A DNA stretch of 64,000 nt, from positions 62,001 through 126,000 of the forward strand of contig JAJEKV010000537.1 of the NCBI GenBank assembly GCA_021234155.1, read 5' to 3'. This stretch comes from Isoetes taiwanensis. Lineage: Eukaryota; Streptophyta; Lycopodiopsida; Isoetales; Isoetaceae. Position numbers and translations under genes: made by a program. This document shows, one piece after another, positions 4,801 to 35,479 of this stretch (position 1 is the first letter of the stretch; the number at the start of each line of letters is the position of its first letter). The notes under the pieces are model-generated. The model was not told where the DNA came from, did not search any database, and worked only from the letters and a program-made list of their open reading frames with translations.

Positions 4801-6339
4801 GATAGTATGTAAAGCTTCCTATAAAAGACCATCAGAATATAAGTATCATATACTTAAAAAATTGGATAGAAGCCACCAGACCTCATGCCCTTATTACAGA
4901 TAATCAATTCATAAGCAGAATGTTTGCTATCAGTAATGCAAAAGGCTGCAAACTCCACTTTACATGTCATCTTTTTACACCTATGAACTGGACATGGTCC
5001 TTAAAATCCACAATGGTTCTACCATTGTTCTGAAATTAGAAATTATATATTCGTTTCCCTTTCGGTTCTTCGTTTAACCTACTCGAGATATCCATCCATA
5101 CCATCACGGATGTCGATTTATCGGATCTTGACCAAAGTCAAGAGAATCTAAGGACCGATCCGGTTCCATTTTTAGTTAACCATTATTTCTATATCACATT
5201 CTATGTCCAAGACTTAAACAAGCAAAATTTTATCCCAAAAACTGGACCAGAGCCCTGTATATCAGGTGTTTCCATAAAATTCCAAATGCATATGCATCAT
5301 TTCCTAGGCAACATTTTAGCTATGCCTATTGTACCATTTACCCTTTACTATTGTTCCTTTTTAATTAACCATTTTTATCTCATATTCAATGTTCCAGATT
5401 GGAGCAGTTAGACCACTAAAATTTTATGCCAAACTAGAGCAAGGCCCTGGATACTAGGTGTCTCCATAAATCTCCTTTAAAAATTCAAAAAGCATATGCA
5501 TCATTTCTAATGCAGTATACCATATAGCCCTTTTCCCCATGCATAGAATAAAGCATTTATGAATTCCCAATTATGGTGAACCCATTTCCAGAAATATTCC
5601 CAGGATTTATGCCATTTGTGATTATCCTACATACATCCCGAACTTTTCAGTTTCTTTTTATGTGCTTCACACCATATATCGTATGCTAAATATTCAGGAA
5701 AACAAGATTCTATGTCTTTGCGAATCCTGCAATCAGATCCATCTATTTGAAGAGCATTCTATAATGCTACATGAATAAGCATACAATTACTATCAAGGAT
5801 TCAATTACTGTATTATCAAACCAGCATATGCAAATGATAGACCTTCCATTAATCGATTATGTTCATGATAAATCACATTCAAAACTTGCGTTATGGAATA
5901 AACCCATCATTTCTTTTGCGAACATTCTGGAGCATATCCATTCATGTAATATATGCTAATGTCTGCGTTTGAGAAACACTTACCACAATATAGCAGAAAG
6001 CATATACTACTATTTTGCAAAAAGGAAACAAATATCGTCACCCAAAATGGCCACAATTGCAAGGCCCTTTGTAGAAGTCAGATTCCCCATTCAAAACGAA
6101 TTTGGAGGAGTTAGACGGGTTACCTGCAGTGAAACCATAGCAAATTAGCCTTAATCAGGGTAACAAACTAAGCCACTAGCAGGTAAGCTATCGTCTATAC
6201 TCGGCTCTTAAGCCCTTCACCAAATTAAAGGCGAAAAACCACTATTAAACCGTTTTTGATAATCAGTTGTGCTAAAAAGTTGAGAACCTGAACTTTATAG
6301 CCATACAAACACTTTAATTTTACTTAACTACAAGGTTTA

Positions 6340-6960
6340 GAACAGCAGAAGAAGCCTGCTGAACCTGGTTTAACGCGATTGGATCGCTTTCATCCGGATC
6401 CAGCTCATAAGCTTGATTAAAATCCACTTGCTTTCGGCCGGAGAATCAGCAATCTTTGGTAATCTCGAGGTTGGCCCTCTCCACGCTAGTAGATTCTATT
6501 CCCAAGTTGCCCTTAAAGAAATTCGTGACAGTGCCTGCCTTGGCCTGGGTTTTGCCAATTAGATTAAATCTATGCACAATCTTTTCCAGAAACACCTTGC
6601 CTGGTTGAGCAATGTTTTCCCCTACGCTTTTACATGGCGCCGGATCCGGTGACCTTATCAATCAAATCTAGCAATTTAGCTCTTGTAAAACCCAGTTACG
6701 TGTTCCATCGGCCTCGGCATGGCCCGCGGGGAGCAGCAAGATGTGGCAAAGTAGAAAGAAATGGGTGTTCCCCTTGCCTATAAAGCCCCGACCAGTTCCA
6801 ATCCTATGGAAGTTTCCCGAAAACATTCTAAATAGAGCCCATATTTTTCTGTTATACCTTTTCCGCTGGCATGGTTCCTCCGGCCGGTTCGTTTGCATGA
6901 TGCCATTCTACCGGCAACATCCTATCCCTTGGATTGCTCTCATAAGCTGTTAGAGGCCCA
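6340..6960 (-). pseudogene. Family 1 5' ORF, copy 1 (broken)
   Basis: Counterpart of the intact 225-codon ORF at 22.16-22.84 kb. Frames here keep FLEKIVHRFNLIGKTQAKAG and the RKIWALFRMFSGNFHRIGTG block, but they are shifted relative to each other. The sequence around 6.6-6.73 kb, which should join them, has several small indels. The function is unknown, as for the intact copy. Confidence 0.7.
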
Positions 6961-7445
6961 ATCCGGGCGCCTCCAGCGATCTTTGCTATTACGCATGCAT
7001 TAGGTCTTCAAAGCAAACCCTAGACTAATAGTACTCACCAGTATCGTGTATGTGTTCATCCACTTATTTGTTAATTCCTTACAAATAAACGTATTTTGTC
7101 ATACTACCAAATTATCCATTGTTAGTAATTTCGGCCAGTACCTATGGCCATGTTTTCAATACCATAAAAATTGCACCATGCCCTTAGCACGGTCCTTTTG
7201 CATGTTAATTTTCTTTGGGTAGCAGTTCATGTTGCAGACCTTGAAAACCTGGTGCTCCTGCTTCATGGTCTTAAAGGGTCCTGTATTCCAATGTTAATTG
7301 CACTATTGTCAACATTTGTAAAATGCCTTACCTTTCAGGTGTGTATCTGCTGTTTATGGTTCAAACACCTAGTAGTTAGTCTCCGTTACTTAATCCTGTT
7401 ATCTTAAGCTGTAAGACAAGGATCAAAACAAATTTCGTTTGGATA

Positions 7446-7975
7446 TCAATCATATATATGTTCTTATGTTTGTCGCGCTTATCCGTAGATTGATCAGAGA
7501 TCCGGCGGCTTTAAATTAACTTTAGGAAGTATCACGTGGTCGGATGGAATTTGGGAGTTCTTATATACATTCTATATAGACGATCCTACGGTCCAGGCTG
7601 ATTTGATTGTATATAATTCTAACATATATATGTTCTTATGTTTGTCCCATTCAATCCGACCGTTGATTCAAGATCCTACGGCTCACGTGGCTTTGGGAAG
7701 TATCCTACGGCCCAGATGGCTTGGGAGTTTGTATATAGACTATGTAATCGACCCTACGGCCCAGGTTGCTCTTGATCCTGATCGTCGATCCGAGATCCTA
7801 TGGCTCATGTTGCTTGGGACATATCTTACGGTCCACATGGCTTTGGGAATTATATGTAATAGATCCTACGGCTCATATTGCTTTTATATGGTGAGATCTT
7901 GATCGTTGATCGAGTCTAAGATCCTAAGGCTCATGTTGAATGCTCGTCCCTTAAGGAAAGGCTTTTAAAAATTTT
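7446..7975. repeat. Degenerate tandem repeat, GATCCTACGG units
   Basis: The phrase GATCCTACGGCYCA, followed by a TTGCTT or GGCTTTGGGA stretch, recurs about nine times between 7.49 and 7.94 kb. A longer pair starting ATATATATGTTCTTATGTTT occurs at about 7.45 and 7.62 kb. The repeat sits between element copy 1 and the SINE head. It may be the SINE body or the target into which copy 1 inserted. No coding frame of interest. Confidence 0.65.
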
Positions 7976-8050
7976 TATGTTTTTGGGGGGATTCGAACCC
8001 TGATCCTCAACACCCCAAACCCGCCACTCTAACCACTAGACCAAGCATTA
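7976..8050 (-). mobile_element. tRNA-derived SINE head
   Basis: On the minus strand there is an A box TGGTCTAGTGG (8,033-8,043) and a B box GGTTCGAATCC (7,989-7,999), spaced as in a tRNA gene. Both fit the RNA polymerase III internal promoter consensus (TRGYNNANNNG and GGTTCGANTCC). I could not fold a full acceptor stem, and AT-rich sequence follows, so a SINE head is more likely than a working tRNA gene. The repetitive DNA at 7.45-7.97 kb would be its body. Confidence 0.6.
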
Positions 8051-8119
8051 ATTATATGAATGATTTATGTTTCAAATATACTTAAGGGTAATGTTCCCAT
8101 TAAGATAAAATAGACTATA

Positions 8120-9070
8120 ACATTCTAGCTAGTTCAAGAAAGTTCTAGAATGTTCTGGAAGGCTCTAGAAAGTTCTAGAATCTTCTAAAATGTTCTAGAA
8201 CATAAGAGAATCTAGGGGGGATCTAAGAAAATTCTTCCAGAAAGTTCCAAATTGTTCTAATAAGTTTTAGAATGTTCTAGAATGCGGGGAATCTATGGGA
8301 ATGTAAAAATCTAGGAAATACTTTGGAAAGTTCTAGAATATTTTGAAAGTCTTAGAATGTTCGAGAAAGTCTTAGAATGTTCTAAAAAGTTCTAGAATGT
8401 AAAGGAATCGAGGAAGAATCTAATAGAATGTAAGAAAATCTCATAAAATGTAAGAGAATCTAGGCGGGATCTAAGAAAATTCTTCCAGAAAGTTCCAAAT
8501 TGTTCTAATAAGTTTTAGAATGTTCTAGAATGCAGGGGAATCTATGGGAATGTAAGGAAATCTAGGGAAATACTTTCAGAAAGTTCTAGAATATTTTGAA
8601 AGTCTTAGAATGTTTCAGAAAGTCTTAGAATGTTCTAAAAAGTTCTAGAATGTAAAAGGAATCGAGGAGGAATCTAATAGAATGTAAGAAAATCTTATAA
8701 AATGTAAGAGAATCTAGGAAAATATTTACAAGCCTAAGGGAATCTCTTAAAATCTGGAGGATCTAAAGGAATCTTCATAAAATCTAAGGAATCTAAGAAA
8801 ATGTTGATGCTCTTAGAGTATCTAAGGGAATCTTTATAGAATCTCTTTGAATCTCATGTAATGTAAAAGGGAACCTAGGGCAATCTCATAAAATCTAAAA
8901 AAGGGATCTAAGGGGATCTTCATAGAATCTTGGAGAATCTAGGGAAATCTAATGGAATCTAGAGGGAATCTTATAAAATTTAAAGGAATGCTCACGAAAC
9001 CTCCAAGAGAACCTTGGTAGAATCTTAGAGAATCTATGAATTTAGAGTATTCTCAAGAGATTCTTTTAGA
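8120..9070. repeat. TTCTAGAA satellite / higher-order repeat
   Basis: Short units such as AGTTCTAGAATGTTCTAGAA and GGAATCTAAGGGAATCT repeat with variation over almost 1 kb. A larger unit of about 249 bp is duplicated: the phrase GATCTAAGAAAATTCTTCC recurs near 8.22 and 8.47 kb. At 8,131-8,200 the sequence is fourteen 5-bp units alternating nnTTC and nnGAA in perfect phase. No coding potential is seen. Confidence 0.85.
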
Positions 9071-9145
9071 ATGTAGAGACCTGACAAGAACTTGCGACAT
9101 AGGAACATGCTACAAAACTTCGAACATGCAAGTAGGGGCATTAAA

Positions 9146-9182
9146 TTTCTTGTATATATATATGTATATATATATACAAGTA
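9146..9182. repeat. TA tract joining two element ends
   Basis: CTTGTATATATATATG followed by TATATATATATACAAG forms an imperfect palindrome. On each strand it is the end of a different repeat: a plus-strand sequence ending AATTTCTTGTATATA, and the minus-strand 3' end of family 1 copy 2, ending GGGCTTACTTGTATATA. Confidence 0.75.
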
Positions 9183-9461
9183 AGCCCTACCTCCTTCCGG
9201 AAGGCAAGAGCTGGTCAAAATGTAGTAAAGGGGTGGGAGGGTCCCTATACTACATAGAGACCCTCCCTGCCCACTAAGCTTATTCATAGATGTCACTAGT
9301 GCAAATATCTATCACTGATCATGATCGATCATTGAGTTTTAAGGACTCGAATAACAGCTGATAAGTCAAATTTCAAACCAGGGTAATTACCTATCTCCAG
9401 TGTTCTGTAGACAGCCCGTTCAATATCCATTTTCTTGAAGCCTTTTTAATGAATGCTTGCA

Positions 9462-10061
9462 TTAGCCTATACAAGTCCTCGTTTTACCTTGAGGGTTGGG
9501 TGTAATGCGTAAAGGTGCTGCATCACTGCTTGAGATGATTATATTTACGGCCCAATGATAAGGTCTGCAAGCATCAGCATGCACATACTTAGATATATGG
9601 AATGACAATTTCTCCCGTTTGTCATAATGATATGTTTGGAAAATTCCATGATACGGGTCCATGATGACAATGGTCATATTGAGGAAGTTGGCCCTCCTTC
9701 CTCTGCTTTCCAGTCCGGTGTAATTTCCCCAATACTCAGTTTCATCCTCAATCTTTAGGTAGTTCAGATTGTAAATTGTGCCTAATAAACTGTCATCAGC
9801 TTGAAGCCCAAGAGCTTTTCTAATGTAGGCATTATTGACCTCGATTATGTCATCCATATATACTTTGGTGTCGGCCAAAGCAGTGACCTCATTGTACATG
9901 CCAACGCGTACCAACACGAGAATAAATTGCGGCTCAAACCATGCGGTACAAATTGCACCAAAATTTGGGCTCTTTGGAGAATCCATGGGGATTCCTTTAG
10001 CTACCCCTCCATATCTGTTGCCCATCTCGTAAGAAGCGGTTTGCAACAACCGAGAATTCAT
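9462..10061 (-). pseudogene. RT C-terminal half, copy 2 (open for 199 codons)
   Basis: Here the C-terminal half of the reverse transcriptase is open in one frame, unlike copy 3. It carries motif B (AKGIPM, about residues 21-26), AICTAWFE, and the catalytic YMDD box at residues 68-71 (about 9,849-9,860). After that come a YNLNYLKIEDE stretch and a YDKREKLSFHISKYVHAD block typical of the palm/thumb boundary in Penelope-like RTs. The two aspartates of YMDD are present. The reading frame is lost at the 3' end near 9,480. The N-terminal half lies upstream in other frames (10.1-11.4 kb). Confidence 0.8.
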
Positions 10062-10099
10062 ACTTACAAAAGCATTTTCATTGATGCAAACCCAATTAT

Positions 10100-11400
10100 T
10101 ACTTTACGGTTTTGTGCCTCCATGTGACTTTAACTATTTTGTTACTCCCAACTTTATACCACGAGGTTATTGTTGGAGTATTTCTTATTTTGATACTTCA
10201 AACACAAGAAATTATACTTTCCATCACCCTACATATGCCGTCTTGCCCTCGAGAGGGATATTCTCATAGCATTTGGTGACATACGCATACAAACACATCC
10301 GTGATCCTTTGGGGTAGATTACATACCACATCATATATGGAATTAATTATCCATGAAGCTCTAATCTTGTGCTTTTGGAGCAGTTAATTTTTACCCGACT
10401 TTTCTTCACAAATATTTGGCCATAAGTCACATAGATTGTTCAAGCGGTGCAACCAAGGATGCCGGTTGTGAAAAAGATAGATTCATGGCGCTAGTGATCC
10501 CACTGTAACTATTCTTGTGGGCTTTGAAGATGCCCGAGCATATAGGGTAACTCAATGTTTCCAAGGTCGGTCATGTAGATAAGGTTGTATTTCGGACTGA
10601 TTTTATTTATCAACTCAAGCGGGCTGATTTCAATTGCATGGAAGTCACTACTATTTGCTTTGGCGGGGGCTTCATCCCTAATATGCTTGGGCATATAAAA
10701 GAAGGATTATTAGCGCCTTATCGATTCGAAATGTAGAAATTTGTTACCGGCCGGTTTATGTTGCTTATTCTTTGTAACATCATTGATTGGAAATTTCTTT
10801 TTGAGCGTTTTTCCTTTAATATGCTTCTGGGCTAAGGAACAAGCCTTTCTCAACATTTCCTTTTTACACTCAGCAATAATCTGTTTATCAATATCATATG
10901 TATTATGCTGGTGCACTGTAAAAAATTGCTCAATTGCCTTACTGATCTCAATTCTGAGCTACTTGGTGGTGAAAGGTGCATGCGGTATGTGGTTGAGACC
11001 AATACCCAACCAACCCTTGAGGGCTTTGCTGTGGACCAGTTTTAGACTAGTTGTTCTAATGTGGCCAATCTCAGCACAGACATATTCCTTGAGAGATGGA
11101 TTTGCGCAAGGGCATGGGGCTTCATAATCCTGAGCAAAAACCAATTTAGGTTTATACAGCATGCTTTTGAGGTTGGCATTGAATTTCCATCCGAAAATGG
11201 TATCCGACCACATTTTATCTCCTGCCTCACCTAGATAGGTGATGAGCACATCCCTAAAGGCACCTTGAACCTAATCTTCTCCACACTTTTGGAGAAAGAA
11301 ATTGACATAATACAAATTTACTTTTCTCATTTTCCTTAAGCGTTACCGGTCTCCATTTTGTTTCGACATCTTTGAGCAAGATCCTTTTTTTTACTCTGTA
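10100..11400 (-). pseudogene. RT N-terminal half, copy 2 (broken)
   Basis: Counterpart of the long RT frame at 16.98-18.51 kb. Pieces keep GHIRTTSLKLVHSKALKGWL near 11.03 kb, ECKKEMLRKACSLAQKHIKG near 10.85 kb and SSDFHAIEISPLELINKISP near 10.62 kb. Each is separated from the next by a small indel. The motif A region near 10.25 kb is also shifted. Confidence 0.7.
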
Positions 11401-11944
11401 AATTTAACATTTCAAAGCTTACAGTTAACATGAGTTACTTGCTTGATGGACAAATTGAAACAATCTTACCACCGCCCATTTATTTTTTTAAAAAAAAACT
11501 ACGAGAATTTGATCTGCGGGGATAGGCGGTTGCCCTTGTATTTTTCTTTTAGGCTTAAAAGCCATTCGATCTTGGCATAATAGCCGTAACCCTTTTGGTT
11601 TAATAACCTTAGGGAGGGAACCGGAGGTCCAATGTTTTTATGGCATAATAGCCATAAAAATTTGAGCAACTCTGCCATACTCATGGCTCTCGGCTTAATT
11701 GGCGGGTAGTCATTTCTTAGCCACCAAAAAGGTTTTCAAGCGGTTATCTGTTAGGCCTATGACATTACATCCTAGGTTTTAATGGCGAAATTCCTATTAT
11801 GCCGTTTCGCCCGAACAAACTTAATTCATTCCCAAAATGAGGATACATTAATATTTATGCGGAAATCAAAGTCAATGATTTAAAACCCAAAGTATAGGTT
11901 TAGAGAAATATAAATTACCTCGATTCATATCAAAACCTTAGGGT

Positions 11945-13575
11945 AGTTGGTTTGTAGCGCTGATGGCGTGCATGTGCTTCCCTATTGGTTTATTATTTGA
12001 GTGCTCCATCTTTGTCGATATTGGTAAAGGCTGGAGGTACCTCGGATACACTGTACGAGCTTAGCGAAGTTGCATATGGTTTTTTCTTAAACTTAGGAGG
12101 CATGATAACCTCGATTTCATCGTCCAGTTTCTGCTTTCTCTTATGCATAGGATACCTTTGCTGCGTGTCCCTTTCTTCCAATTCCAAGGAATCGTTGAGA
12201 AACTTTCTAGGTCTTATTGTTTTTCGAATATCGAATTTGTTTTGGTGTTACCAAATTCCTGCTTAAGAGAAAGTGTGTTATCCTCAGCATACTTGCTGGT
12301 CATCTTGACCATGGTTTCCCGAACCTTCAAGTAGCCAATATAGGCTACTGCTCCAGCCCGCATACCCTCCGAATTCATCAATTTATGAAACTGATAAAAC
12401 CGGTACCTGGAAGACTTGTTGGGCCAGATTTTGTCAGTACTATTCATTATGTACCATACTGCCTGGTCATACCAGGTGATAGTGTCTTTGCAATTATTGA
12501 CTCGTTCCTGCCATACCTGTCGCAGCACTTGAAAAAAGGACAAAAAGTGCGCCAGATTTTCCTTGCATACAGATCATGTCTGCCCTCACTTGTCTTAGCC
12601 ATGTGGCCTTTTTGTCCGATATACATGCCATTATTCCGGTTACATTTTTTACCAAAGAACTGCGTGGTAAATGGCATGTTCAACACAATCCTATCAATTC
12701 TTTTGGTGAAGGTATCAGCATCCTTTAAGGATTGTTTTATTTCTTCCTCTGTAATCTTTGCACAAGCTTATGAAGGTGGTGCTATTGCTAGGGGCTTTTC
12801 CACCGAGATTATGTGTGTTCCAAAACCCTTGGTCACATTTGACACCTTGTAATTCTGCCAATCTTGCCGACAGTATGGGAAAATGATAACAATTGTAGAG
12901 AGTAAGCCTTTTGATATCATAGTTTTCGGATCGTCTGAACTTCACAGCCAATTACGGTTCCAATTCCTTAGTTGGCTCAAGTTCCAAAACTTAGTTCGCT
13001 CCTCTTGAACTGACATACTTATGTTGAATAGGCAATTATTCATTATCACATTACCTCTGGCTTCTTTTTGGGTTGTGTCACCTTTTTGGGTTTGTTGATG
13101 GGTGGATACATGACATTAAGACCATTTGCTTTCTGAATAGCAGTTACCCCTTTGACAAATGTAAGGATATCCTTGGCCTCATTAAGCTCAGCCTCATAGT
13201 AATTTCTTTGGCGACATGTTTGTAAACCTAAATCCACAATACTCATGCATGTAGGTATATCATTTTGAGTCTTGTTAATCCACGGAGACGGATCGAACAT
13301 ATTGTTCATTCCCAAGAAGGTAACTTCTGAGAAATGTCTCCATCTTCAAAGGCCAGCTTCCTTTTTGATGAAATACTTGTGCATTTCAGGTTTGATGATG
13401 CAACCAATCATTAGTTGCCCTGACCTTGTTGGGGGGCGGATCAGGTGTCTTTGCCATAGCCAAAGCTTGCAATATCAGGTACCAATCGGGGAGCATCCAT
13501 AAGAAGGCATTTGTAAAACTACCAAATCGAGGGGTTTAATGGTTCCTCCTCATTGATAGTATGTAAAGCTTCCTA
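11945..13575 (-). pseudogene. Family 1 ~540-residue exon, copy 2 (broken)
   Basis: Collinear with the intact exon at 19.01-20.65 kb but interrupted by small differences. Pieces include NMPFTTQFFGKKCNRNNG near 12.65 kb, KLMNSEGMRAGAVAYIGYLK near 12.35 kb and GMNNMFD near 13.3 kb. The splice-acceptor-like TATAG before GAAGCTTTACATAC is kept near 13.57 kb. Confidence 0.7.
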
Positions 13576-15116
13576 TAAAGACCATCGGAATATAAGTATC
13601 ATATACTTAAAAAATTGGATAAAGCCACGGACCTCATGCCCTTATTACAGATAATCAATTCATAAGCAGAATGTTTGCTATCAGTAATGCAAAAGGCTGC
13701 AAACTCCACTTTACATGTCATCTTTTTACACCTATGAACTGGACATGGTCCTTAAAATCCACAATGGTTCTACCATTGTTCTGAAATTAGAAATTATATA
13801 TTCGTTTCCCTTTTCGGTTCCCAGAACCTACTCCGAGATATCCATCCATACCATCACGGCATGTCAGGATTTATCAGATCTTGACCAAAGTCAAGAGAAT
13901 CCTAAGGACCAGTCCAGTTCCATTTTTAGTTAACCATTATTTCTATATCACATTCTATGTCCAAGACTTAAACAAGCAAAATTTTATCCCAAAAATTTGG
14001 ACGAGCCACAGTATATCGTGTGTTTCCATAAAATTCCAAATGCATATGCATCATTTCCTAGGCAACATTTTAGCTATGCCTATTGTACCATTTACCCTTT
14101 ACTATTGTTCCTTTTTAATTAACCATTTTTATCTCATATTCAATGTTCCAGATTGGAGCAGTTAGACCACTAAAATTTTATGCCAAACTAGAGCAAGGCC
14201 CTGGATACTAGGTGTCTCCATAAATCTCCTTTAAAAATTCAAAAAGCATATGCATCATTTCTAATGCAGTATACCATATAGCCCTTTTCCCCATGCATAG
14301 AATAAAGCATTTATGAATTCCCAATTATGGTGAACCCATTTCCAGAAATATTCCCAGTATTTATGCCATTTGTGATTATCCTACATACATCCCGAACTTT
14401 TCAGTTTCTTTTTATGTGCTTCACACCATATATCGTATGCTAAATATTCAGGAAAACAAGATTCTATGTCTTTGCGAATCCTGCAATCAGATCCATCTAT
14501 TTGAAGAGCATTCTATAATGCTACATGAATAAGCATACAATTACTATCAAGGATTCAATTACTGTATTATCAAACCAGCATATGCAAATGATAGACCTTC
14601 CATTAATCGATTATGTTCATGATAAATCACATTCAAAAACTTGCGTTATGGAATAAACCCATCATTTCTTGTCGAACATTCTGGAGCATATCCATTCATG
14701 TAATATATGCTAATGTCACACGTTTGAGAAACACTTACCAATATAGCGAAGCATATACTACTATTTTAAAAAAAAGGAAACAAATATCTCGTCACCCAAA
14801 ATGGCCACAATTGCAAGGCCCTTTGTGAAATCGATTCCCCATTCAAAACGAATTTGGAGGAGTTAGGCGGGTTACTGCGGTGAAACCATAGCAAATTAGC
14901 CTTAATCAGGGTAACAAACTAAGCCACTAGCAGGTAAGCTATCGTCTATACTCGGCTCTTCGCCCTTCACCAAATTAAAGACTGAAAAACCACTATTAAA
15001 CCGTTTTGATAATCGGTATGTGCTAAAAGTTGGCCCGAACTTTATAGCCATACAAACACTTTAATTTTACTTAACTACAAGGTTTAGAACAGCAGAAGAA
15101 GCCTGCTGAACCTGGT

Positions 15117-15758
15117 TTAACGCGATTGGATCGCTTTCATCCGGATCCAGCTCATAAGCTTGATTAAAATCCACTTGCTTTCGGCAAACCGGAGAATCAG
15201 CAATCTTTGGTAATCTCGGGGTTGGCCCTCTCCACCGCTAGTAGATTCTATTCCCAAGTTGCCCTTAAAGAAATTAGGTGAGCCGATTTTGCACGCCTTG
15301 GCACGGGTTTTGCCAATTAGATTAAATCTATGCACAATCTTTTCCAGGAACACCTTGCCTGGTTGAGCAATGTTTTCCCCTTCTGCTTTACATAGCGCCT
15401 TCAGATCCAGCCCGGCCTTATCAATCAAATCTAGCAATTTAGCTCTTGTAAAACCCCGGTTCTGTGTTCCATCCGGCCTCGGCATGGCCGGGGCAGCGTA
15501 TGTAAAGATGTGGCAAAGTAGAAAGAAATGGGTGTTCCCCTTGCCTATAAAGCCCCGACCAGTTCCAATCCTATGGAAGTTTCCCGAAAACATTCTAAAT
15601 AGAGCCCATATTTTTCTGTTATACCTTTTCCGCTGGCATGGTTCCTCCAGCCAGTTCGTTGCATGATGCCATTCACGGCAACATCCTATCCCTTGGATTG
15701 CTCTCATAACTGTTAGAGGCCTAATCGGAGCGCCTCCAGCGATCTTGCTATAACGCAT
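15117..15758 (-). pseudogene. Family 1 5' ORF, copy 2 (213 codons, open)
   Basis: This frame stays open and matches the 225-codon ORF of copy 3 over nearly its whole length. Shared blocks include GGAPIRPLTVMRAIQGIGCC, RKIWALFRMFSGNFHRIGTG and DKAGLDLKALCKAEGENIAQ. The C-terminal part differs (it ends ESKWILIKLMSWIRMKAIQSR, apparently frameshifted), so its last ~40 residues are probably not the native ones. It starts at an in-frame ATG (MRYSKIAGG). Confidence 0.65.
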
Positions 15759-16206
15759 GCATTAGGTCTTCAAAGCAAACCCTAGACTAATAGTACTCAC
15801 CCGATTATCGTGTATGTGTTCATCCACTTATTTGTTAATTCCTTACAAATAAACGTATTTTGTCATACTACCAAATTATCCATTGTTAGTAATTTCGGCC
15901 AGTACCTATGGCCATGTTTTCAATACCATAAAAATTGCACCATGCCCTTAGCACGGTCCTTTTGCATGTTAATTTTCTTTGGGTAGCAGTTCATGTTGCA
16001 GACCTTGAAAACCTGGTGCTCCTGCTTCATGGTCTTAAAGGGTCCTGTATTCCAATGTTAATTGCACTATTGTCAACATTTGTAAAATGCCTTACCTTTC
16101 AGGTGTGTATCTGCTGTTTATGGTTCAAACACCTAGTAGTTAGTCTCCGTTACTTAATCCTGTTATCTTAAGCTGTAAGACAAGGATCAAAACAAATTTC
16201 GTTTGG

Positions 16207-16207
<1 letters not shown>

Positions 16208-16241
<34 letters not shown>

Positions 16242-16244
16242 CAA
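16208..16244. repeat. (TA)n between copies 2 and 3
   Basis: A short run of TA repeats with one G interruption is the only sequence between the 5' end of copy 2 and the 3' end of copy 3. Tandem copies joined through the target repeat would be expected if a new copy inserts into the (TA)n next to an older one. Confidence 0.85.
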
Positions 16245-16393
16245 GTAAGCCCTACCTCCTTCCGGAAGGCAAGAGCTGGTCAAAATGTAGTAAAGGGGTG
16301 GGAGGGTCCCTATACTACATAGAGACCCTCCCTGCCCACTAAGCTTATTCATAGATGTCACTAGTGCAAATATCTATCACTGATCATGATCGA

Positions 16394-16972
16394 TCATTGA
16401 GTTTTAAGGACTCGAATAACAGCTGATAAGTCGAATTTCAAACCAGGGTAATTACCTATCTCCAGTGTTCTGTAGACAGCCCGTTCAATATCCATTTTCT
16501 TGAAGCCTTTTTTAATGAATGCTTGCATTAGCCTATACAAGTCCTCGGCGGTACCTGCGGGGGGTTGGTGTAATGCGTAAAGGTGCGGCATCACTGCTTG
16601 AGATGATTATATTTACGGCCCAATGATAAGGATGCGCAAGCATCGGCATGCACATACTTAGATATATGGAATGACAATTTCTCAGGTTTGTCATAATGAT
16701 ATGTTTGGAAAATTCCATGATACGGGTCCATGATGACAATGGTCATATTGAGGAAGTTGGCCCTCCTTCTCTGCTTTCGGTCCGGTGTAATTTCCCCAAT
16801 ACTCAGTTTCATCCTCAATCTTTAGGTAGTTCAGATTGTAAATTGTGCCTAATAAACTGTCATCAGCTTGAAGCCCAAGAGCTTTTCTAATGTAGGCATT
16901 ATTGACACTCAGTATGTCATCCATATACCGGGCTGGTGTGTCGAAGAAAGGCAGACTGACCTCATTGTACAT
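16394..16972 (-). pseudogene. Reverse transcriptase C-terminal part, copy 3 (frameshifted)
   Basis: Continuation of the RT, split over several frames. It has ARYMDDILSVNN (YMDD at 16,916-16,927, catalytic motif C), GTIYNLNYLKIEDETEYWGN, an FLNMTIVIMDPYHGIFQTYH and HISKYVHAD block, and a final frame DLYRLMQAFIKKGFKKMDIE ending at a stop at 16,394. No GIY-YIG, zinc finger or other domain follows the RT. Copy 2 has the same region mostly in one frame, so at least some shifts here are private and may be sequencing errors. Confidence 0.8.
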
Positions 16973-16981
16973 GCCAACACA

Positions 16982-18511
16982 TTACCAACACGAGAATAAA
17001 TTGCGCTCAAACCATGCGGTACAAATTGCACAAAGGCGGATTTCTTTGGAGAATCCCATGGGGATTCCTTTAGCCTGCCTCCATATCCTGTTGCCCATCT
17101 GTAAGAAGCAGTTTTGCAACAACCAGGAATTCATACTTACAAAAGCATTTTCATTGATGCAAACCCAATTATTACTTTCTGGTTTTTTGTGCCTCCATGT
17201 GACTTTAACTTGGCTGTTACTCCCAACTTTATACCACAGGTTATTGTTGGAGTATTTCTTATTTTGATACTTCCAAACACAAGAAATTATACTTTCCATC
17301 ACCCTACATATGCCGTCTTGCCCCTCGAGAGGGATATTCTCATAGCATTTGGTGACATCTGCCACAAACACATCCGTGATCCTTTGGGGTAGATTACATG
17401 CCACATCATATATGGAATTAATTATCCATGAAGCTCTAATCTTGTGCTTTTGGAACAGATTAATTTTAGCCAGCTTTTCTTCACAAATATTTGGCCATAA
17501 GTCACATAGATTGTTCAAGCAGGCTGCAACCAAGGATGCCAGTTGTGAAAAGATAGATTCATGCGCGCTAGTGATCCACCTGTAACTATTCTTGTGGGCT
17601 TTGAAGATGCCCAGCATATAGGGTAACTCCAATGTTTCCAAGGTCCAGTCATGTAGATAAGGTTGTATTTCCAGACTGATTTTATTTATCAACTCAAGCG
17701 GGCTGATTTCAATTGCATGGAAGTCACTACTATTTAGCCTGAGCAGGGCTTCATCCCTAATATGCTTCGGGCATATAAAAGAAGGATTATTAGCCGCCTT
17801 ATCGATTCCAGAAATGTAGAAATTTGTTACCAGCCAGTTTATGTTGCTTATTACTGTAACATCATTGATTGGAAATTTCTTTTGAACGTTTTTTCCTTTA
17901 ATATGCTTCTGGGCTAAGGAACAAGCCTTTCTCAACATTTCCTTTTTACACTCAGCAATAATCTGTTTATCAATATCATATGTATTGTGCTGGTGCACTG
18001 TAAAAAATTGCTCAATTGCCTTACTGATCTCAATTCTGAACTGCAGGCTGGTGAAAGGTCTGTCTGGTATGTGGTTGAGACCAATACCCAACCAACCCTT
18101 GAGGGCTTTGCTGTGGACCAGTTTTAGACTAGTTGTTCTAATGTGGCCAATCTCAGCACAGACATATTCCTTGAGAGATGGATTTGCGCAAGGGCATGGG
18201 GCTTCATAATCCTGAGCAAAAACCAATTTAGGTTTATACAGCATGCTTTTGAGGTTGGCATTGAATTTCCATCCGAAAATGGTATCCGACCACATTTTAT
18301 CTCCTGCCTCACCTAGATAGGTGATGAGCACATCCCTAAAGGCCTGCTTGAACCTAATCTTCTCCACACTTTTGGAGAAGAAATTGACATGTACAAATTT
18401 ACTTTTCTCATTTTCCTTAACTGTTACCAGTCTCCATTTGTTTTCAGCATCTTTGAGCAAGATCCTTTTTTTACTCTGTAAATTTAACATTTCAAAGCTT
18501 ACAGTTAACAT
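16982..18511 (-). CDS. Penelope/TERT-like reverse transcriptase, N-terminal part
   Basis: A 509-codon frame; the true exon probably starts at SKKRILLKD after ACAG at 18,476. Upstream of the RT core is a CPC...C segment (residues 106-118) and GHIRTTSLKLVHSKALKGWL followed by GLNHIP. RT motifs follow: LPYMLGIFKAHKNSYRWIT (296-314, finger motifs 1/2), VADVTKCYENIP (383-394, motif A with catalytic D385) and KGIPMG (481-486, motif B) with AICTAWFE after it. DV..CY..IP and GIPMG are typical of Penelope-like RTs and resemble TERT. It would copy element RNA at a DNA target. The frame breaks after FERNLF, just before the YMDD box, which is found at 16.92 kb in the next frame. Confidence 0.85.
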   Translation of the reverse strand: MLTVSFEMLNLQSKKRILLKDAENKWRLVTVKENEKSKFVHVNFFSKSVEKIRFKQAFRDVLITYLGEAGDKMWSDTIFGWKFNANLKSMLYKPKLVFAQDYEAPCPCANPSLKEYVCAEIGHIRTTSLKLVHSKALKGWLGIGLNHIPDRPFTSLQFRIEISKAIEQFFTVHQHNTYDIDKQIIAECKKEMLRKACSLAQKHIKGKNVQKKFPINDVTVISNINWLVTNFYISGIDKAANNPSFICPKHIRDEALLRLNSSDFHAIEISPLELINKISLEIQPYLHDWTLETLELPYMLGIFKAHKNSYRWITSAHESIFSQLASLVAACLNNLCDLWPNICEEKLAKINLFQKHKIRASWIINSIYDVACNLPQRITDVFVADVTKCYENIPLEGQDGICRVMESIISCVWKYQNKKYSNNNLWYKVGSNSQVKVTWRHKKPESNNWVCINENAFVSMNSWLLQNCFLQMGNRIWRQAKGIPMGFSKEIRLCAICTAWFERNLFSCW

Positions 18512-19018
18512 GAGTTACTTGCTTGATGGACAAATTGAAACAATCTTACCACCCCCATTTATTTTTTTAAAAAAAAACTACCAGAATTTGATCTGCAGGA
18601 TACGGGCGTTGCCCTTGTATTTTTCTTTTAGGCTTAAAAGCCATTCTGATCTTGGCATAATAGCCGTAACCCTTTTGGTTTAATAACCTTAGGGAACTTC
18701 TGGAGGTCCAATGTTTTTATGGCATAATAGCCATAAAAATTTAGGCAACTCTGCCATACTCATGGCTCTCCTGGCTTAATTGGCAGGTAGTCATTTCTTA
18801 GCCACCAAAAGGTTTTCAACGGTTATCCTGTTAGGCCTATGACATTACATCCTAGGTTTTAATGACAGAAATTCCTATTATGCCGTTTCGGCCGAACAAA
18901 CTTAATTCATTCCCCAAAATGAGGATACATTAATATTTATGCCAGAAATCAAGTCAATGATTTAAAACCCAAAGTATAGGTTTAGAGAAATAATAAGTAC
19001 CTCGATTCATATCAAAAC
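18476..19018 (-). other. Probable intron between central and RT exons
   Basis: Between the central exon (donor-like AAG|GTTTTG at about 19,018) and the RT exon (acceptor-like TTTACAG|AG, exon start 18,475) there are about 540 bases with no long minus-strand frame. There are poly-T runs near the acceptor side. Exact ends are inferred from splice consensus only. Confidence 0.5.
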
Positions 19019-20650
19019 CTTAGGGTAGTTGGTTTGACCGCAGTGGCCCGTGCATGTGCTTCCCCTATTGGTTTATTGACTGAGTGCTCCATGCTGTCGA
19101 TATTGGTAAGGCTGGAGGTACCTCCAGATACACCTGTACCAGAGCTTGAAGTTGCATATGGTTTTTTCTTAAACTTAGGAGGCATGATAACCTCGATTTC
19201 ATCGTCCAGTTTCTGCTTTCTCTTATGCATAGGATACCTTTGCTGCGTGTCCCTTTCTTCCAATTCCAAGGAATCGTTGAGAAACTTTCTAGGTCTTATT
19301 GTTTTTTCCAGAATATCAGCTGTTTTGGTGTTACCAAATTCCTGCTTAAGAGAAAGTGTGTTATCCTCAGCATACTTGCTGGTCATCTTGACCATGGTTT
19401 CCCGAACCTTCAAGTAGCCAATATAGGCTACTGCTCCAGCCCGCATACCCTCCGAATTCATCAATTTATGAAACTGATAAAACCGGTACCTGGAAGACTT
19501 GTTGGGCCAGATTTTGTCAGTACTATTCATTATGTACCATACTGCCTGGTCATACCAGGTGATAGTGTCTTTGCAATTATTGACTCCGTTCCTGCCATAC
19601 CTGTCGCAGCAGCACTTGAAAAAAGGACAAAAAGTGCGCCAGATTTTCCTTGCATACAGATCATGTCTGCCCTCACTTGTCTTAGCCATGTGGCCTTTTT
19701 GTCCGATATACATGCCATTATTCCGGTTACATTTTTTACCAAAGAACTGCGTGGTAAATGGCATGTTCAACACAATCCTATCAATTCTTTTGGTGAAGGT
19801 ATCAGCATCCTTTAAGGATTGTTTTATTTCTTCCTCTGTAATGCTGCACAAGCTTATGAGAACGCTGGTGCTAACCGGGGCCAGCACCCCGAGATTATGT
19901 GTGTTCCAAAACCCTTGGTCACATTTGACACCTTGTAATTCTGCCAATCTTGCCGACAGTATGGGAAAATGATAACAATTGTAGAGAGTAAGCCTTTTGA
20001 TATCATAGTTTTCCAGATCGTCCTGAACTTCCTGTAATTCTGGTTCCAATTCCTTAGTTGGCTCAAGTTCCAAAACTTCGTTCTGCTCCTCTTCAGACAG
20101 CATACTTATGTTGAATAGGCAATTATTCATTATCACATTCTGCTCTGGCTTCTTTTTGGGTTGTGTCACCTTTTTGGGTTTGTTGATGGGTGGATACATG
20201 ACATTAAGACCATTTGCTTTCTGAATAGCAGTTACCCCTTTGACAAATGTAAGGATATCCTTGGCCTCATTAAGCTCAGCCTCATAATGTGCTGCTGGCA
20301 GCATGTTGTAAACCTCGTCCACAATACTCATGCATGTAGGTATATCATTTTCAGTCTTGTTAATCCTGGAGACCAGATCGAACATATTGTTCATTCCCAA
20401 GAAGGTAACTACAGAAATGTCTCCATCTTCAAGGCCAGCTTCCTTTTTGATGAAATACTTGTGCATTTCAGGTTTGATGATGCAACCAATCATTAGTTGC
20501 ACAGCCTTGTTGGGGGGCCAGATCCGTGTGCTGCCATAGCCAAAGCTTGCAATATCCGTGTACCAATCAGGAGCATCCATAAGAGGCAGCTGTAAAACTA
20601 CCAAATCAGGGTTTAATGGTTCCTCCTCATTGATAGTATGTAAAGCTTCC
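19012..20650 (-). CDS. Family 1 central exon, ~545 residues, unknown function
   Basis: An open frame from a splice-acceptor-like TTTTATAG at 20,651, or from the first Met (MVVLQLPLMD) at 20,604. In order it has a W-containing start (APDWYTDIASFGYG), a Pro/Lys segment around residue 140, an acidic Glu-rich stretch around residue 180, a Cys/Arg/Trp-rich middle (KCNRNNGMYIGQKGHMAKTS, then FCPFFKCCCDRYGRNG) and a basic tail with HKRKQK and PPKFKKKP that could be a nuclear signal. An AAG|GTTTTG donor-like site lies just before the stop. GMYIGQ recalls the YIG half of GIY-YIG nucleases, but no GIY half is visible. The function is unknown. It always sits directly upstream of the RT exon. Confidence 0.65.
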
Positions 20651-20684
20651 TATAAAAGACCATCAGAATATAAGTATCATATAC

Positions 20685-20801
20685 TTAAAAAATTGGATAG
20701 AAGCCACCAGACCTCATGCCCTTATTACAGATAATCAATTCATAAGCAGAATGTTTGCTATCAGTAATGCAAAAGGCTGCAAACTCCACTTTACATGTCA
20801 T
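20685..20801 (-). CDS. Short conserved exon (MTCKVEF...)
   Basis: A 38-codon frame, MTCKVEFAAFCITDSKHSAY and onward to a stop, followed ~35 bases later by a splice-acceptor-like TTTTATAG before the next exon. The same stretch is conserved in copies 1 and 2 (ATG at 4,970 and 13,721). Family 2 has a similarly placed MTCVVKYVVGLFVG frame at 37.40 kb. A GAG|GTCTGG donor-like site lies inside the frame, so the true 3' boundary is uncertain and the join to the next exon is not resolved. Confidence 0.4.
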   Translation of the reverse strand: MTCKVEFAAFCITDSKHSAYELIICNKGMRSGGFYPIF

Positions 20802-22157
20802 CTTTTTACACCTATGAACTGGACATGGTCCTTAAAATCCACAATGGTTCTACCATTGTTCTGAAATTAGAAATTATATATTCGTTTCCCTTTTCGGTTC
20901 CCAGAACCTACTCCGAGATATCCATCCATACCATCACGGCATGTCAGGATTTATCAGATCTTGACCAAAGTCAAGAGAATCCTAAGGACCAGTCCAGTTC
21001 CATTTTTAGTTAACCATTATTTCTATATCACATTCTATGTCCAAGACTTAAACAAGCAAAATTTTATCCCAAAAACTGGACCAGAGCCCTGTATATCAGG
21101 TGTTTCCATAAAATTCCAAATGCATATGCATCATTTCCTAGGCAACATTTTAGCTATGCCTATTGTACCATTTACCCTTTACTATTGTTCCTTTTTAATT
21201 AACCATTTTTATCTCATATTCAATGTTCCAGATTGGAGCAGTTAGACCACTAAAATTTTATGCCAAACTAGAGCAAGGCCCTGGATACTAGGTGTCTCCA
21301 TAAATCTCCTTTAAAAATTCAAAAAGCATATGCATCATTTCTAATGCAGTATACCATATAGCCCTTTTCCCCATGCATAGAATAAAGCATTTATGAATTC
21401 CCAATTATGGTGAACCCATTTCCAGAAATATTCCCAGTATTTATGCCATTTGTGATTATCCTACATACATCCCGAACTTTTCAGTTTCTTTTTATGTGCT
21501 TCACACCATATATCGTATGCTAAATATTCAGGAAAACAAGATTCTATGTCTTTGCGAATCCTGCAATCAGATCCATCTATTTGAAGAGCATTCTATAATG
21601 CTACATGAATAAACATACAATTACTATCAAGGATTCAATTACTGTATTATCAAACCAGCATATGCAAATGATAGACCTTCCATTAATCGATTATGTTCAT
21701 GATAAATCACATTCAAAAACTTGCAGTATGGAATAAACCCATCATTTCTTGTCTGAACATTCCTGGAGCATATCCATTCATGTAATATATGCTAATGTCA
21801 CACGTTTGAGAAACACTTACCCTGTATAGCAGAAAGCATATACTACTATTTTGCAAAAAAGGAAACAAATATCTCGTCACCCAAAATGGCCACAATTGCA
21901 AGGCCCTTTGTAGAAGTCAGATTCCCCATTCAAAACGAATTTGGAGGAGTTAGACGGGTTACCTGCAGTGAAACCATAGCAAATTAGCCTTAATCAGGGT
22001 AACAAACTAAGCCACTAGCAGGTAAGCTATCGTCTATACTCGGCTCTTCGCCCTTCACCAAATTAAAGACTGAAAAACCACTATTAAACCGTTTTGATAA
22101 TCAGCTGTGCTAAAAAGTTGAGAAACTGAACTTTATAGCCATACAAACACTTTAATT

Positions 22158-22835
22158 TTACTTAACTACAAGGTTTAGAACAGCAGAAGAAGCCTGCTGA
22201 ACCTGGTTTAACGCGATTGGATCGCTTTCATCCGGATCCAGCTCATAAGCTTGATTAAAATCCACTTGCTCAGCTTCAGGAGAATCAGCAATGCTGGTAA
22301 TCTCAGGGTTGGCCCTCTCCCTGCTAGTAGATTCTATTCCCAAGTTGCCCTTAAAGAAATTCGTGACAGTGCCTGCCTTGGCCTGGGTTTTGCCAATTAG
22401 ATTAAATCTATGCACAATCTTTTCCAGAAACACCTTGCCTGGTTGAGCAATGTTTTCCCCTTCTGCTTTACATAGCGCCTTCAGATCCAGCCCAGCCTTA
22501 TCAATCAAATCTAGCAATTTAGCTCTTGTAAAACCCCGGTTCTGTGTTCCATCCGGCCTCGGCATGACCGGCAGGAGCAGCAAGATGTGGCAAAGTAGAA
22601 AGAAATGGGTGTTCCCCTTGCCTATAAAGCCCCGACCAGTTCCAATCCTATGGAAGTTTCCCGAAAACATTCTAAATAGAGCCCATATTTTTCTGTTATA
22701 CCTTTTCCGCTGGCATGGTTCCTCCAGCCAGTTCGTTGCATGATGCCATTCACGGCAACATCCTATCCCTTGGATTGCTCTCATAACTGTTAGAGGCCTA
22801 ATCGGAGCGCCTCCAACGATCTTGCTATTCTGCAT
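22158..22835 (-). CDS. Family 1 5' ORF, 225 residues, unknown function
   Basis: First long frame of the element, starting at MQNSKIVGG. The N-terminal ~85 residues are basic and rich in Cys/His/Trp (GCCREWHHATNWLEEPCQRK), which could be metal- or nucleic-acid-binding but matches no motif I know. Residues ~105-165 (DKAGLDLKALCKAEGENIAQ, then FLEKIVHRFNLIGKTQAK) are conserved in family 2, where the match is AGIDLQALCKKEEEAFAQPS at 35.84 kb. That conservation supports real coding. The C-terminal part is acidic (ELDPDESDPIAL). It may continue by splicing into the exon at 20.8 kb. It is not a GIY-YIG endonuclease or a recognisable gag. Confidence 0.6.
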   Translation of the reverse strand: MQNSKIVGGAPIRPLTVMRAIQGIGCCREWHHATNWLEEPCQRKRYNRKIWALFRMFSGNFHRIGTGRGFIGKGNTHFFLLCHILLLLPVMPRPDGTQNRGFTRAKLLDLIDKAGLDLKALCKAEGENIAQPGKVFLEKIVHRFNLIGKTQAKAGTVTNFFKGNLGIESTSRERANPEITSIADSPEAEQVDFNQAYELDPDESDPIALNQVQQASSAVLNLVVK

Positions 22836-23283
22836 GCATTAGGTCTTCAAAGCAAACCCTAGACTAATAGTACTCACCAGTATCGTGTATGTGTTCATCC
22901 ACTTATTTGTTAATTCCTTACAAATAAACGTATTTTGTCATACTACCAAATTATCCATTGTTAGTAATTTCGGCCAGTACCTATGGCCATGTTTTCAATA
23001 CCATAAAAATTGCACCATGCCCTTAGCACGGTCCTTTTGCATGTTAATTTTCTTTGGGTAGCAGTTCATGTTGCAGACCTTGAAAACCTGGTGCTCCTGC
23101 TTCATGGTCTTAAAGGGTCATGTATTCCAATGTTAATTGCACTATTGTCAACATTTGTAAAATGCCTTACCTTTCAGGTGTGTATCTGCTGTTTATGGTT
23201 CAAACACCTAGTAGTTAGTCTCCGTTACTTAATCCTGTTATCTTAAGCTGTAAGACAAGGATCAAAACAAATTTCGTTGGGAT

Positions 23284-23310
23284 ATATATCTGTTATATAT
23301 ATACAATAAC
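23284..23310. repeat. TA-rich junction at the 5' end of copy 3
   Basis: The string TATATCTGTTATATATATAC here occurs again at 33.77 kb, in front of family 2 copy A. It lies between the 5' end of copy 3 and a MITE. Confidence 0.7.
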
Positions 23311-23425
23311 TTAAGCTGCCCCCTTATGGATAGAGATTTGGGTGTCGCCATTTGGGCCGTCCAAATTCGAGATCGACGGTCTACGCAATGACACCCAAAT
23401 CTCTATCCATAAGGGGGCAGCTTAA
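23311..23425. mobile_element. MITE with perfect 36-bp terminal inverted repeats
   Basis: The left arm (23,311-23,346, starting TTAAGCTGCCCCCTTATGG) and right arm (23,390-23,425) are exact reverse complements, around a 43-bp centre containing GGGCCGTCC and GATCGACGGTC. There is no coding capacity. Shorter relatives of the GGATAGAGATTTGGG arm occur at about 27.46 and 62.12 kb. Confidence 0.9.
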
Positions 23426-33649: not shown

Positions 33650-33793
33650 TGACTTCTTCTAACTTAATTCTTAACACTCAACTTTAGATACTGATGTAGA
33701 CTTTACTCCCATATGTTCGTAAACTATAGCTGATAAACCCATTGATAGTACAAAAACTTGTATATCTGTTATATATATACATATATATATATA
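33650..33793 (+). repeat. Dispersed repeat end with TA tract before family 2
   Basis: It resembles 27.30-27.44 kb: ACACTCAACTTTAGA, then CCCATTGATAGTACAAAAACTTGTATAT, then TA-rich DNA including TATATCTGTTATATATATAC. It abuts the 5' end of family 2 copy A. Confidence 0.7.
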
Positions 33794-35479
33794 TCAAATT
33801 AACGGATGGTTTTGCCCAGTACAAGGCTCAGAAGTTAATTTAAAAACCTATCTTTGATAGTGTCTCAAATTATCACGCATACTAACATTTGGGTAAGAAT
33901 CGTGAGGCGATCGAAAAAATACAATCGCGGGCCGCATGACATCTCGGATAGGGCACAAAGACATGGCCCTTGGTAAGTTTAATAAGGATACACCACGTAA
34001 CATTGTGGAAAAATGGTAGGTGCATTTTTCGAAAGCATGGGCAACATAGCCTAGTTGGTGGTCTACCCTACTCAAAGACAAGCATTAGCGGGCAAGACGG
34101 AATAACATGACGAGATGTGAAAATAAGGGCATGACCCAAGAAGGTTTGTTTTAGAAATAATTGAGCTTTGTTTTAGAAACATTTGAGGAGACACGAGTAT
34201 TAAGATGTTATACGGTATGTGGGTGGCATCTCTAGTCTTAATGATGGAGCCAAGTTCGGGCTAAGGAGAATTAAAATATCGTAAAGTCTTATCTAGACTA
34301 ATGCACCTCCCTATAAAGGAATATGGCTGTCTGCCAAAGTTAATGCCTAAGGGCATAAATACAATGCCTATGGGCATAAATACAAAGGTTGAACACATCT
34401 TTGGACACCAAGAAGATGGAAATTAAACAAGCAAGGGTGGACATTATAAAAACGCAGAGGTGACCACAAGCAAGGTATAGTTGGCAAAATATTTTGGGGA
34501 TGGCAAAGGCATGGCCCTACATGAGTAATAGATTAAAGCATTTTTCACATTAATGGCTATGGCTAGGAGACATAAAAGAAGATGAGCGTCTTGCCGCGAG
34601 ATGCATATGGGAAGGACTAACACATAGCATATGTTCAAGATATCGCTACGGAATGTTATGCCCAAAGGTTGCCTAGTCTACCAAACAGTAGCATGTTGGT
34701 AAAAGCTTGAATAACATGGCGGTTGCAACATAGGTGCATATGATCTACTGCATTTGAGTATATTTCAATAACATCTCCGGATAGCACACAAGGACATGAC
34801 CCTAAAGAAGTAATAAGAGCAAAGATAGCATACAAAGAAGTTAACTCTACATGTAACTTAGGTTGGTGATATCGTTTTGCAATGTTAAGCCTAGATGGAT
34901 GGCGCTCTACTAAAGCACAAGCACAAAGCGGCAAGAATGAACAACAGGGAGATGTAAAACAAGGGCGCCCATAAAATGTTATCTTTAGCAATAACCGATA
35001 AACCATGTAGCATTAAAATGTTTAAGTGTATAGGTTCAAACATCTCCGGTCTTAAATTACCCGGTGGGCTTGCTTTCGGGCTAAGGAGAATCACAATACT
35101 TGTAGGGTCTCCTCTAGACTAATATGCACTTTCCCCATAAGGGAATATGGTTTTCCGTTAAAATTAATGCTTATGGGCATAATTGCAAAGTTTGACACAA
35201 AGTCGTGCACCGAGAAGGATGGAAATTAAACAAGCAAAAGGTGGACAATTTCTTTTTTAAAAATATGTAGAGGTGACTAGAAGCCGATATAAGGGCATAA
35301 CATTTTTCGGATTGCATAAACCATGAAAAATGCTGGTTTTTTTACATACTAACATTTGGGTAAATTCGTGAGATAGAGCAGAAAAAAAATACAATCTTTG
35401 GATGTTTAGGGTTCGTGGTATCTCTAGGATTTAATCTCCCGAGGCCCTAAGTTCTCGATAATGGCGGAAATGGCTGCAA

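Follow-up and report, generated by a model that had tools for sequence, protein, structure and literature searches.

The 64,000-nucleotide stretch of Isoetes taiwanensis DNA analysed here (contig JAJEKV010000537.1, positions 62,001 to 126,000; hereafter the window) carries on its minus strand repeated units of ~7.07 kb that encode a reverse transcriptase (RT). These units probably represent a Penelope-like mobile retroelement with a telomerase-like RT and no recognisable endonuclease, in which reverse transcription would start internally on a read-through RNA at a TA-repeat site. The Penelope-like assignment is drawn from the layout and the RT-domain match and is a tentative one. The usual insertion has the form (TA)n–R–internal–R–(TA)n, where R is a ~2.4 kb direct repeat (unit positions 1-2411) and the internal part runs to unit position 7068. 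R contains a first exon of ~120 amino acids (aa) and a structured RNA, while the internal part contains a second open reading frame (ORF2), the RT, a 3' hairpin and a TA block.

Two complete, adjacent units, B (9153-16222) and C (16218-23285, with boundaries set by comparison with genome copies), and a third, interrupted unit A (3042-7459, unit positions 1-4415) make up the minus-strand array. When window 16201-23320 (unit C and its edges) was compared with the window by BLAST, it matched unit B at 9153-16229 (94.8% identity, 7,164 columns) and copy A at 3042-7446 (94.8%, 4,462 columns). A preliminary description of this DNA had proposed three head-to-tail copies of ~7 kb. This holds for B and C, which abut at an (AT)n block running from the 3' end of C to the 5' start of B (16207-16241, minus strand), but A is interrupted and separated from B by ~1.7 kb of other DNA (about 7460-9152). 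Within the window, copy A stops short of the RT; the part with the RT (genome copy L012, unit positions 4517-6866) is found beyond the window on the same contig, at C261:51488-53583, beyond ~11 kb of other DNA, and ~100 bp of the unit are absent at the break. The interrupting DNA includes a Retrotrans_gag frame at window 3-314 (E=4.5e-10) and, among the L012 frames, an integrase-like frame identified by eye. Neighbouring units share R, so that the array reads R–internal–R–internal–(1.7 kb)–R–internal. The tandem character first reported therefore exists as head-to-tail arrays, but largely reflects an R–internal–R element with long terminal direct repeats.

The ends of the element were defined from 20 copies fetched from the genome assembly (1,658,258,908 bases in 1,110 contigs). 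A 3' signature, GGAGGTAGGGCTTA in unit C (16246-16259, minus strand, before the TA block), is present in 18 of these copies (missing from L012 and L018), and the unit's own 5' start follows it directly in 15 of the 20. The R of unit C occupies 20875-23285 on the minus strand, its right end being taken from second R copies at seven genome loci. At all seven, the second R stops within about 25 nt of the R/internal boundary, at GGTTCTGGGAACCGAAAAGGGAAACGAATATATA or a variant of it. Paired R copies are 94.7-99.8% identical, gaps excluded (14 segments, nine loci). As in Penelope-like elements, the targets are AT-rich: the left flank is TA-rich at 12 of 12 loci, one of them an array junction, and (TA)n adjoins the right end of the second R at six of seven, with the caveat that left-flank TA may partly be the element's own TA block. 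One insertion, L017 (C1041), is a clean single-R copy that ends at the TA block, with no R in the 2,985 bases downstream; its flanks have ~36 bp in common (TTGTGTGTGTGTATATA...), a possible target-site duplication. Another, L022, is placed centrally within a palindrome whose ~170-bp arms are 88% alike. This would fit insertion at cruciform breaks as a single case of seven. Target palindromes as a rule were rejected, with L022 the only example among the seven insertions for which both flanks were read.

The coding capacity of the element begins within R. ORF1 is an exon of ~120 aa with the consensus M[PG][RK].EG[ST]QN[RK]G.TRAKLLDLIDxAGxDLKALC...NQ. In unit C it occupies 22203-22565 on the minus strand (~121 codons, MPRPDGTQNRGF...LNQ). 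Its conserved start at 22565 lies inside R, which like a Penelope pseudo-long terminal repeat (pseudo-LTR) includes the coding start. A CAG^GT donor follows ORF1 in all six copies checked. ORF2 in unit C is a 545-aa exon (19012-20649, minus strand) behind a TAG^GAAGC acceptor, and the form [TC]AG^GA[AG]GC precedes it in 12 of 15 aligned rows; the rows of L024, L025 and L026 began at the frame start and not at the acceptor. The RT exon (~700 aa) begins after AATTTACAG in 12 of 14 rows, and this acceptor was not found in the scanned part of L014 and L019. In unit C the RT exon spans 16374-18475 on the minus strand, with an approximate 3' limit and a frame broken from about 17000 on. Neither ORF2 nor the RT starts with a conserved Met. 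The exon 1 donor is in phase 0 with both acceptors, and exon 1 could therefore be joined to either ORF2 or the RT. The stop codon of ORF2 is followed by a further GGTA donor-like site. These splice signals, from which putative introns are read, are conserved among the copies, and we infer that exon 1 may be alternatively spliced onto ORF2 or the RT. Of the two large upstream proteins proposed earlier, the 545-aa one stands, without a known domain; the other, put at 225 residues, shrinks to the ~120-residue exon, as only the last about 120-140 residues are conserved and the longer frame is lost in several relatives.

All three frames are under strong purifying selection. The ratio of nonsynonymous to synonymous substitution rates (dN/dS) is 0.036-0.142 for the RT (16 of 28 pairs computable), 0.046-0.089 for ORF2 (6 of 10) and 0.12-0.26 for ORF1 (11 of 15), the remaining pairs being saturated in each case. 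The RT motifs quoted in the preliminary description, LPYMLGIFKAHK..YRWIT, VADVTKCYENIP and KGIPMG, are present in unit C, while YMDD is found in unit B and, in another frame, in unit C. That the protein is a real RT is supported by RVT_1 matches in three intact relatives (E=8.2e-7 for L028, 7.8e-6 and 3.4e-5). The best of these, in L028, scores 29.4 bits, 0.2 bits under the Pfam cut-off of 29.6, and the broken RT frames of the window itself gave no RVT_1 match in Pfam. In two of the three matches (L009 and L018), stretches of 157 and 161 residues align to only 93 and 97 positions of the RVT_1 model, leaving ~64 extra residues between RT motifs A and C. Telomerase and Penelope RTs carry an insertion between these two motifs. 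The lack of a visible endonuclease also agrees with the first description: RVT_1 was the sole Pfam match of the RT proteins scanned, and ORF2 had none up to E=10. ORF1 produced a single sub-threshold Pfam match, to DUF4820 (E=0.12), and PHROGs returned only weak matches (E 0.08 or worse).

The window also contains a relative without an RT, D/E, on the plus strand at 33780-42453, with an R of ~4.1 kb and an internal part of ~345 bp. Its first portion, D (33780-38235, locus L041), consists of R (33780-37891) and the internal part, and carries an ORF1-like exon (35831-35962; 53% identity over 47 columns, E=1e-6), the structured RNA and the 3' signature GGAGGTAGGGTTTA (38216-38229), followed by (TA)n at 38233-38335. 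The second R, E (38336-42453), is followed by (TA)n at 42453-42550. No RT was found in D/E by tblastn. Close relatives of D/E occur at C1058, C627, C1047 and C963. Another RT-less element, L047, has R copies at 1-4020 and 5297-9295 (97.2% identical) and an ORF1-like frame, LQALCKK...LNQ, recognised by eye. Stretches of 6-10 kb at L041, L042, L043, L045, L046 and L047 showed no RT match. These RT-less families have R, the RNA, the 3' end and TA targets in common with the RT-bearing family.

The shared RNA element comprises ~122 bases in R, near unit positions 1217-1340, and was aligned in 12 copies. Eleven of its 43 predicted pairs show changes on both sides. Across the alignment, 96.7% of cells are paired, compared with 30-42% when partners are slid, and there are 37 double-change cells against 13.8 in shuffles, none of 500 shuffles reaching as high. 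A covariance model matched the RNA in unit C (21940-22062, E=9e-37, C being part of the model), unit B (14853-14974) and copy A (6101-6224), all on the minus strand, and in D (36738-36855, plus strand, E=2e-8), which lay outside the model. It further matched the RT-less L042, L043, L045, L046 and both R copies of L047, down to 2e-23; copy E (L044) and two TERT loci were not among the matches listed. A second structure, the 3' hairpin (GGGAGGGTCTCTATGTAGTATAGGGACCCTCCC at 16300-16332 in unit C; 9235-9267 in unit B; both minus strand), hardly varies between the fetched copies that have an RT. A similar hairpin of different sequence is present in six of seven RT-less loci scanned and in L048 (54% RT identity), where the same GGAGGTAGGG, a TA block and an apparent next 5' start come after it. 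Lax Rfam searches of the 3' end, 5' end, D-E junction and RNA element gave 24, 4, 17 and 1 matches, none of which came near its gathering score; the best (E=0.014) lay in a TA repeat and none was a hammerhead. Present in families with and without an RT, the structured RNA is a candidate recognition signal of the RT.

Across the genome, the family is large, diverse and apparently recently active. The RT exon as a DNA query gave at least 49 matches, of which 26 extend over more than 2,000 of the 2,270 bases; this is a lower bound, with 40 of 528 candidates scored. With the RT protein of L028 as query, 63 of 4,739 first-look candidates were scored, all with E <1e-254 and 52-100% identity, and 38 of these 63 (the query included, and one of them partial) were without a stop. 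Among the 20 fetched copies, the RT frame reaches 640 aa or more in 13, and ORF2 is complete (545-559 aa) in eight. The 33-base 3' hairpin, with up to two mismatches, occurs 27 times in the genome (21 exact; 0 for the reversed control), and the looser signature GGAGGTAGGG followed by TA occurs 135 times, against once in the control. Among the matches listed, the looser signature recurs in places at regular spacings of 4-9 kb: at ~9.2 kb in C952 (9837104, 9846295 and 9855473), and at ~4.4 and 4.8 kb in C1055:9932268-9940993 and C1066:9005389-9015027. This suggests further tandem arrays of other subfamilies.

We propose the following route of propagation for the Penelope-like element. Transcription from the left R into the right R would produce a terminally redundant RNA. 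Exon 1 would be spliced to ORF2, giving a protein of about 665 aa; with exon 2 skipped, it would be spliced to the RT, giving one of about 810 aa. The RT would then bind the transcript at the structured RNA and at the hairpin, near the 3' part. A TA-repeat DNA end, broken or nicked, could pair with the internal UAUAUA at unit position ~2411 and prime the RT, setting the right end, and the TA block upstream of R could pair with the other TA flank, setting the left end. If priming took place at the TA block, single-R insertions would result, and insertion into the element's own TA block would build arrays such as C-B-A. The RT-less families, which have R, the RNA and the 3' end in common with the element, would have been moved in trans. 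The right end at an internal ATATAT, the TA block on the left, the single-R copy L017 and the arrays within own TA blocks would all fit TA-end priming on UAUAUA.

Several observations weigh against this reading. The described partial tandems of Penelope elements have a 5'-truncated copy, while here both ends are fixed, which is closer to LTR elements. No GIY-YIG endonuclease was matched by Pfam in the ORFs scanned, RVT_1 being the sole RT match; Rfam at gathering score found no match, and hence no hammerhead ribozyme, in the whole window; and sequence and profile searches of the PDB returned nothing credible. One of the seven right ends, that of C812, has no TA flank, and because the insertions lie in TA repeats, no strict target-site duplication can be defined. 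In the RNA element, one of five covariation measures, further pair types, did not exceed shuffles (478 of 500 as high). Finally, L024 and L025 (C908), in which 688 and 673 bases of downstream sequence contained no second R, were rejected as independent single-R insertions. The two are 98% identical over 7.9 kb, their left flanks differ, and they have 565 bp (99.5% identical) in common beyond the 3' signature; they are thus related copies. The pair could reflect a 3' transduction and provides no test of the priming model.

The strongest competitor is a separate, undescribed order of retroelements, LTR-like in character, with an RT that merely resembles those of Penelope elements and telomerase. 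Such an element would replicate by strand transfers to a double-stranded R–internal–R DNA, which would be joined into TA-repeat breaks. We consider this unlikely, though two fixed ends and nearly identical R pairs speak for it. Moreover, a purine-rich stretch and a hairpin precede the right R, and a conserved CAATGGTAGAACCATTG-type hairpin directly follows the left R, both at positions where LTR elements keep primer sites. However, the proteins of the element gave no Pfam match to an integrase, protease or RNase H, a single-R copy ending at the TA block (L017) would be unexpected as a primary product, and R holds a coding exon and, by its splice signals, introns.

Integrated copies of a circular reverse-transcribing DNA virus, resembling a pararetrovirus whose 7 kb circle would have been inserted in terminally redundant form, are very improbable. 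The unit size, partial tandems and TA-rich sites do recall endogenous plant pararetroviruses; AT-repeat sites of these were not found in the available part of one account (PMC526188). Apparent introns and a fixed left end point instead to a genomic element, and no RNase H, protease, movement or coat protein was matched. Searches with the RT, its second half, ORF2 and alignment patterns also found no relative in viral contigs or in a collection of genome contigs, a weak negative because the patterns covered little of the catalytic core of the RT.

That the window array is an assembly artefact is very improbable. Units B and C are indeed nearly identical outside CAG/CTG sites, yet R–internal–R recurs at independent loci with different divergence and flanks. 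The differences between the units nonetheless bear on sequence quality. Between B and C, 87 of 127 merged differences touch CAG/CTG sites of C (expected 32.5; maximum 47 in 200 random draws), while only 26 of the 127 touch those of B; between A and C the figure is 61 of 88 (expected 21.3). The density of CAG/CTG per kb is 33.4 in C, 20.8 in B and 20.9 in A, and across the window only seven of 32 bins, at 16-26 and 56-60 kb, reach 60 or more per 2 kb (60-82, against 13-56 elsewhere). The genome paper, in the portion available, reports nanopore reads and 1658.30 Mb in 204 scaffolds and 909 contigs (PMC8566536). We infer that the depletion stems from miscalled CHG-methylated sites in a nanopore assembly. 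Many of the frame breaks in A and in B, complete as the latter is, look like sequencing errors, and the CAG/CTG-rich regions of the window may mark unmethylated DNA. To call copies A and B dead would be unsafe, given the clustering of their differences at CAG/CTG and the like depletion by region in the window. Least probable of all is a host gene family with an RT-derived domain, tandemly duplicated and not mobile, for although apparent introns and strong purifying selection would suit it, the copies are dispersed over many contigs within TA repeats, form paired R repeats of high identity, have RT-less derivatives and in one case (L022) sit within a palindromic repeat.

Three further features of the window were noted. 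The ends of the spacer at 7460-9152 (TATATACAAG... and ...GGGACAAACATAAGAACATATAT) recur, by eye, beside the insertions L014, L017 and L022, and the spacer is perhaps a second repeat family that likewise lies in TA repeats. It includes, on the minus strand at 7990-8055, a stretch resembling the A and B boxes of a tRNA (by eye); no tRNA was predicted in the window by ARAGORN. A palindrome at 42551-42807, with 127-bp, 100% complementary arms, immediately adjoins the (TA)n that ends copy E; the right flank of L024 resembles half of it by eye. Lastly, a (TA)n of 95 bp at 47420-47534, whose left flank, ACAAAGACTTG, resembles those of D and L025, is a possible unoccupied target.

It is conceivable, though rather doubtful, that the Isoetes element forms a distinct lineage, sister to or outside the described Penelope-like elements. 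Taken jointly, its features would be repeats of kilobase length holding an exon and an RNA, a second protein of perhaps new fold, alternative splicing of a leader exon, endonuclease-free integration at cruciform-prone TA-repeat breaks and RT-less satellites with the same cis-acting parts. Few classes of eukaryotic retroelements are as poorly understood as the Penelope-like elements, whose record in plants is patchy. With its intact frames, defined ends, paired repeats and RT-less partners, the Isoetes family makes a Penelope-like mechanism testable, as the sequence itself displays the ends, the RNA signal and the TA target. If true, the insertion into TA repeats by an element with no recognisable endonuclease would tie retrotransposition to DNA that is fragile and forms cruciforms.

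Telomerase RT is likely the nearest cellular RT. The genome's own TERT candidate matches Telomerase_RBD (E=1.1e-31), in contrast to the RT of the element, which has no match to that domain. Two Telomerase_RBD matches were observed, at C1056:11072773 and C1062:4065477 (L039 and L040); one of these loci looks like the plant's TERT, and the other, which contains long runs of N and S, is perhaps a pseudogene or derives from a contaminant. Long interspersed nuclear elements (LINEs) differ from the Isoetes element, which has terminal repeats and in whose proteins Pfam scans recognised neither an APE nor a restriction-like endonuclease. When profiles were compared with a LINE from this genome, no RT alignment was obtained, a weak test given a profile of little diversity. 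LTR retrotransposons (Ty1/Ty3) share with it long direct end repeats that are near-identical within an element, and RT-less relatives with the same ends; here, however, protease, RNase H and integrase matches are lacking, the RT matches RVT_1 weakly and the repeat contains a coding exon.

Among Penelope-like elements, Athena and Coprina lack an endonuclease. A similar RT is known from other green plants or algae. Elements of the endonuclease-lacking kind are recorded from Selaginella and conifers in the available part of PMC9033089, and those of Selaginella and rotifers are telomere-associated according to the portion available of PMC12477314. The Isoetes element resembles them in having an RT without a recognisable endonuclease, a combination known in another lycophyte, but it lies in TA repeats, and (TTTAGGG)2 was absent from the 47 loci and the window. 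The main text of the Isoetes taiwanensis genome paper, as far as available, does not contain the word Penelope (PMC8566536). We found no published description of the element's layout in the literature covered, and an earlier one may exist.

The likeness to endonuclease-bearing Penelope-like elements (Penelope/Poseidon, PAc of Anolis, the Pen families of Adineta and Dryad of conifers) includes head-to-tail or partial tandem units, direct pseudo-LTRs containing an ORF start and AT-rich targets, and probably also tolerated introns and an internal start of reverse transcription. The pseudo-LTRs of those elements are about 200 bp, in contrast to ~2.4 kb here (about 4 kb in the RT-less relatives), and their GIY-YIG endonuclease and hammerhead ribozyme were not found here; the Isoetes element adds the ORF1 exon, the 545-aa ORF2 and a fixed left end. 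In Adineta, direct pseudo-LTRs include the ORF start, introns are kept and targets are AT-rich (PMC3846280, in the part available). The Anolis element is found in tandem or partial tandem, cuts the AT-rich junction between ORF and pseudo-LTR, and begins reverse transcription inside the RNA (PMC11167929, likewise in part); by analogy, it is the nearest worked-out mechanistic parallel. Overall, the layout of the Isoetes element, as read from the sequence, resembles that of animal Penelope elements and differs from the descriptions we found.

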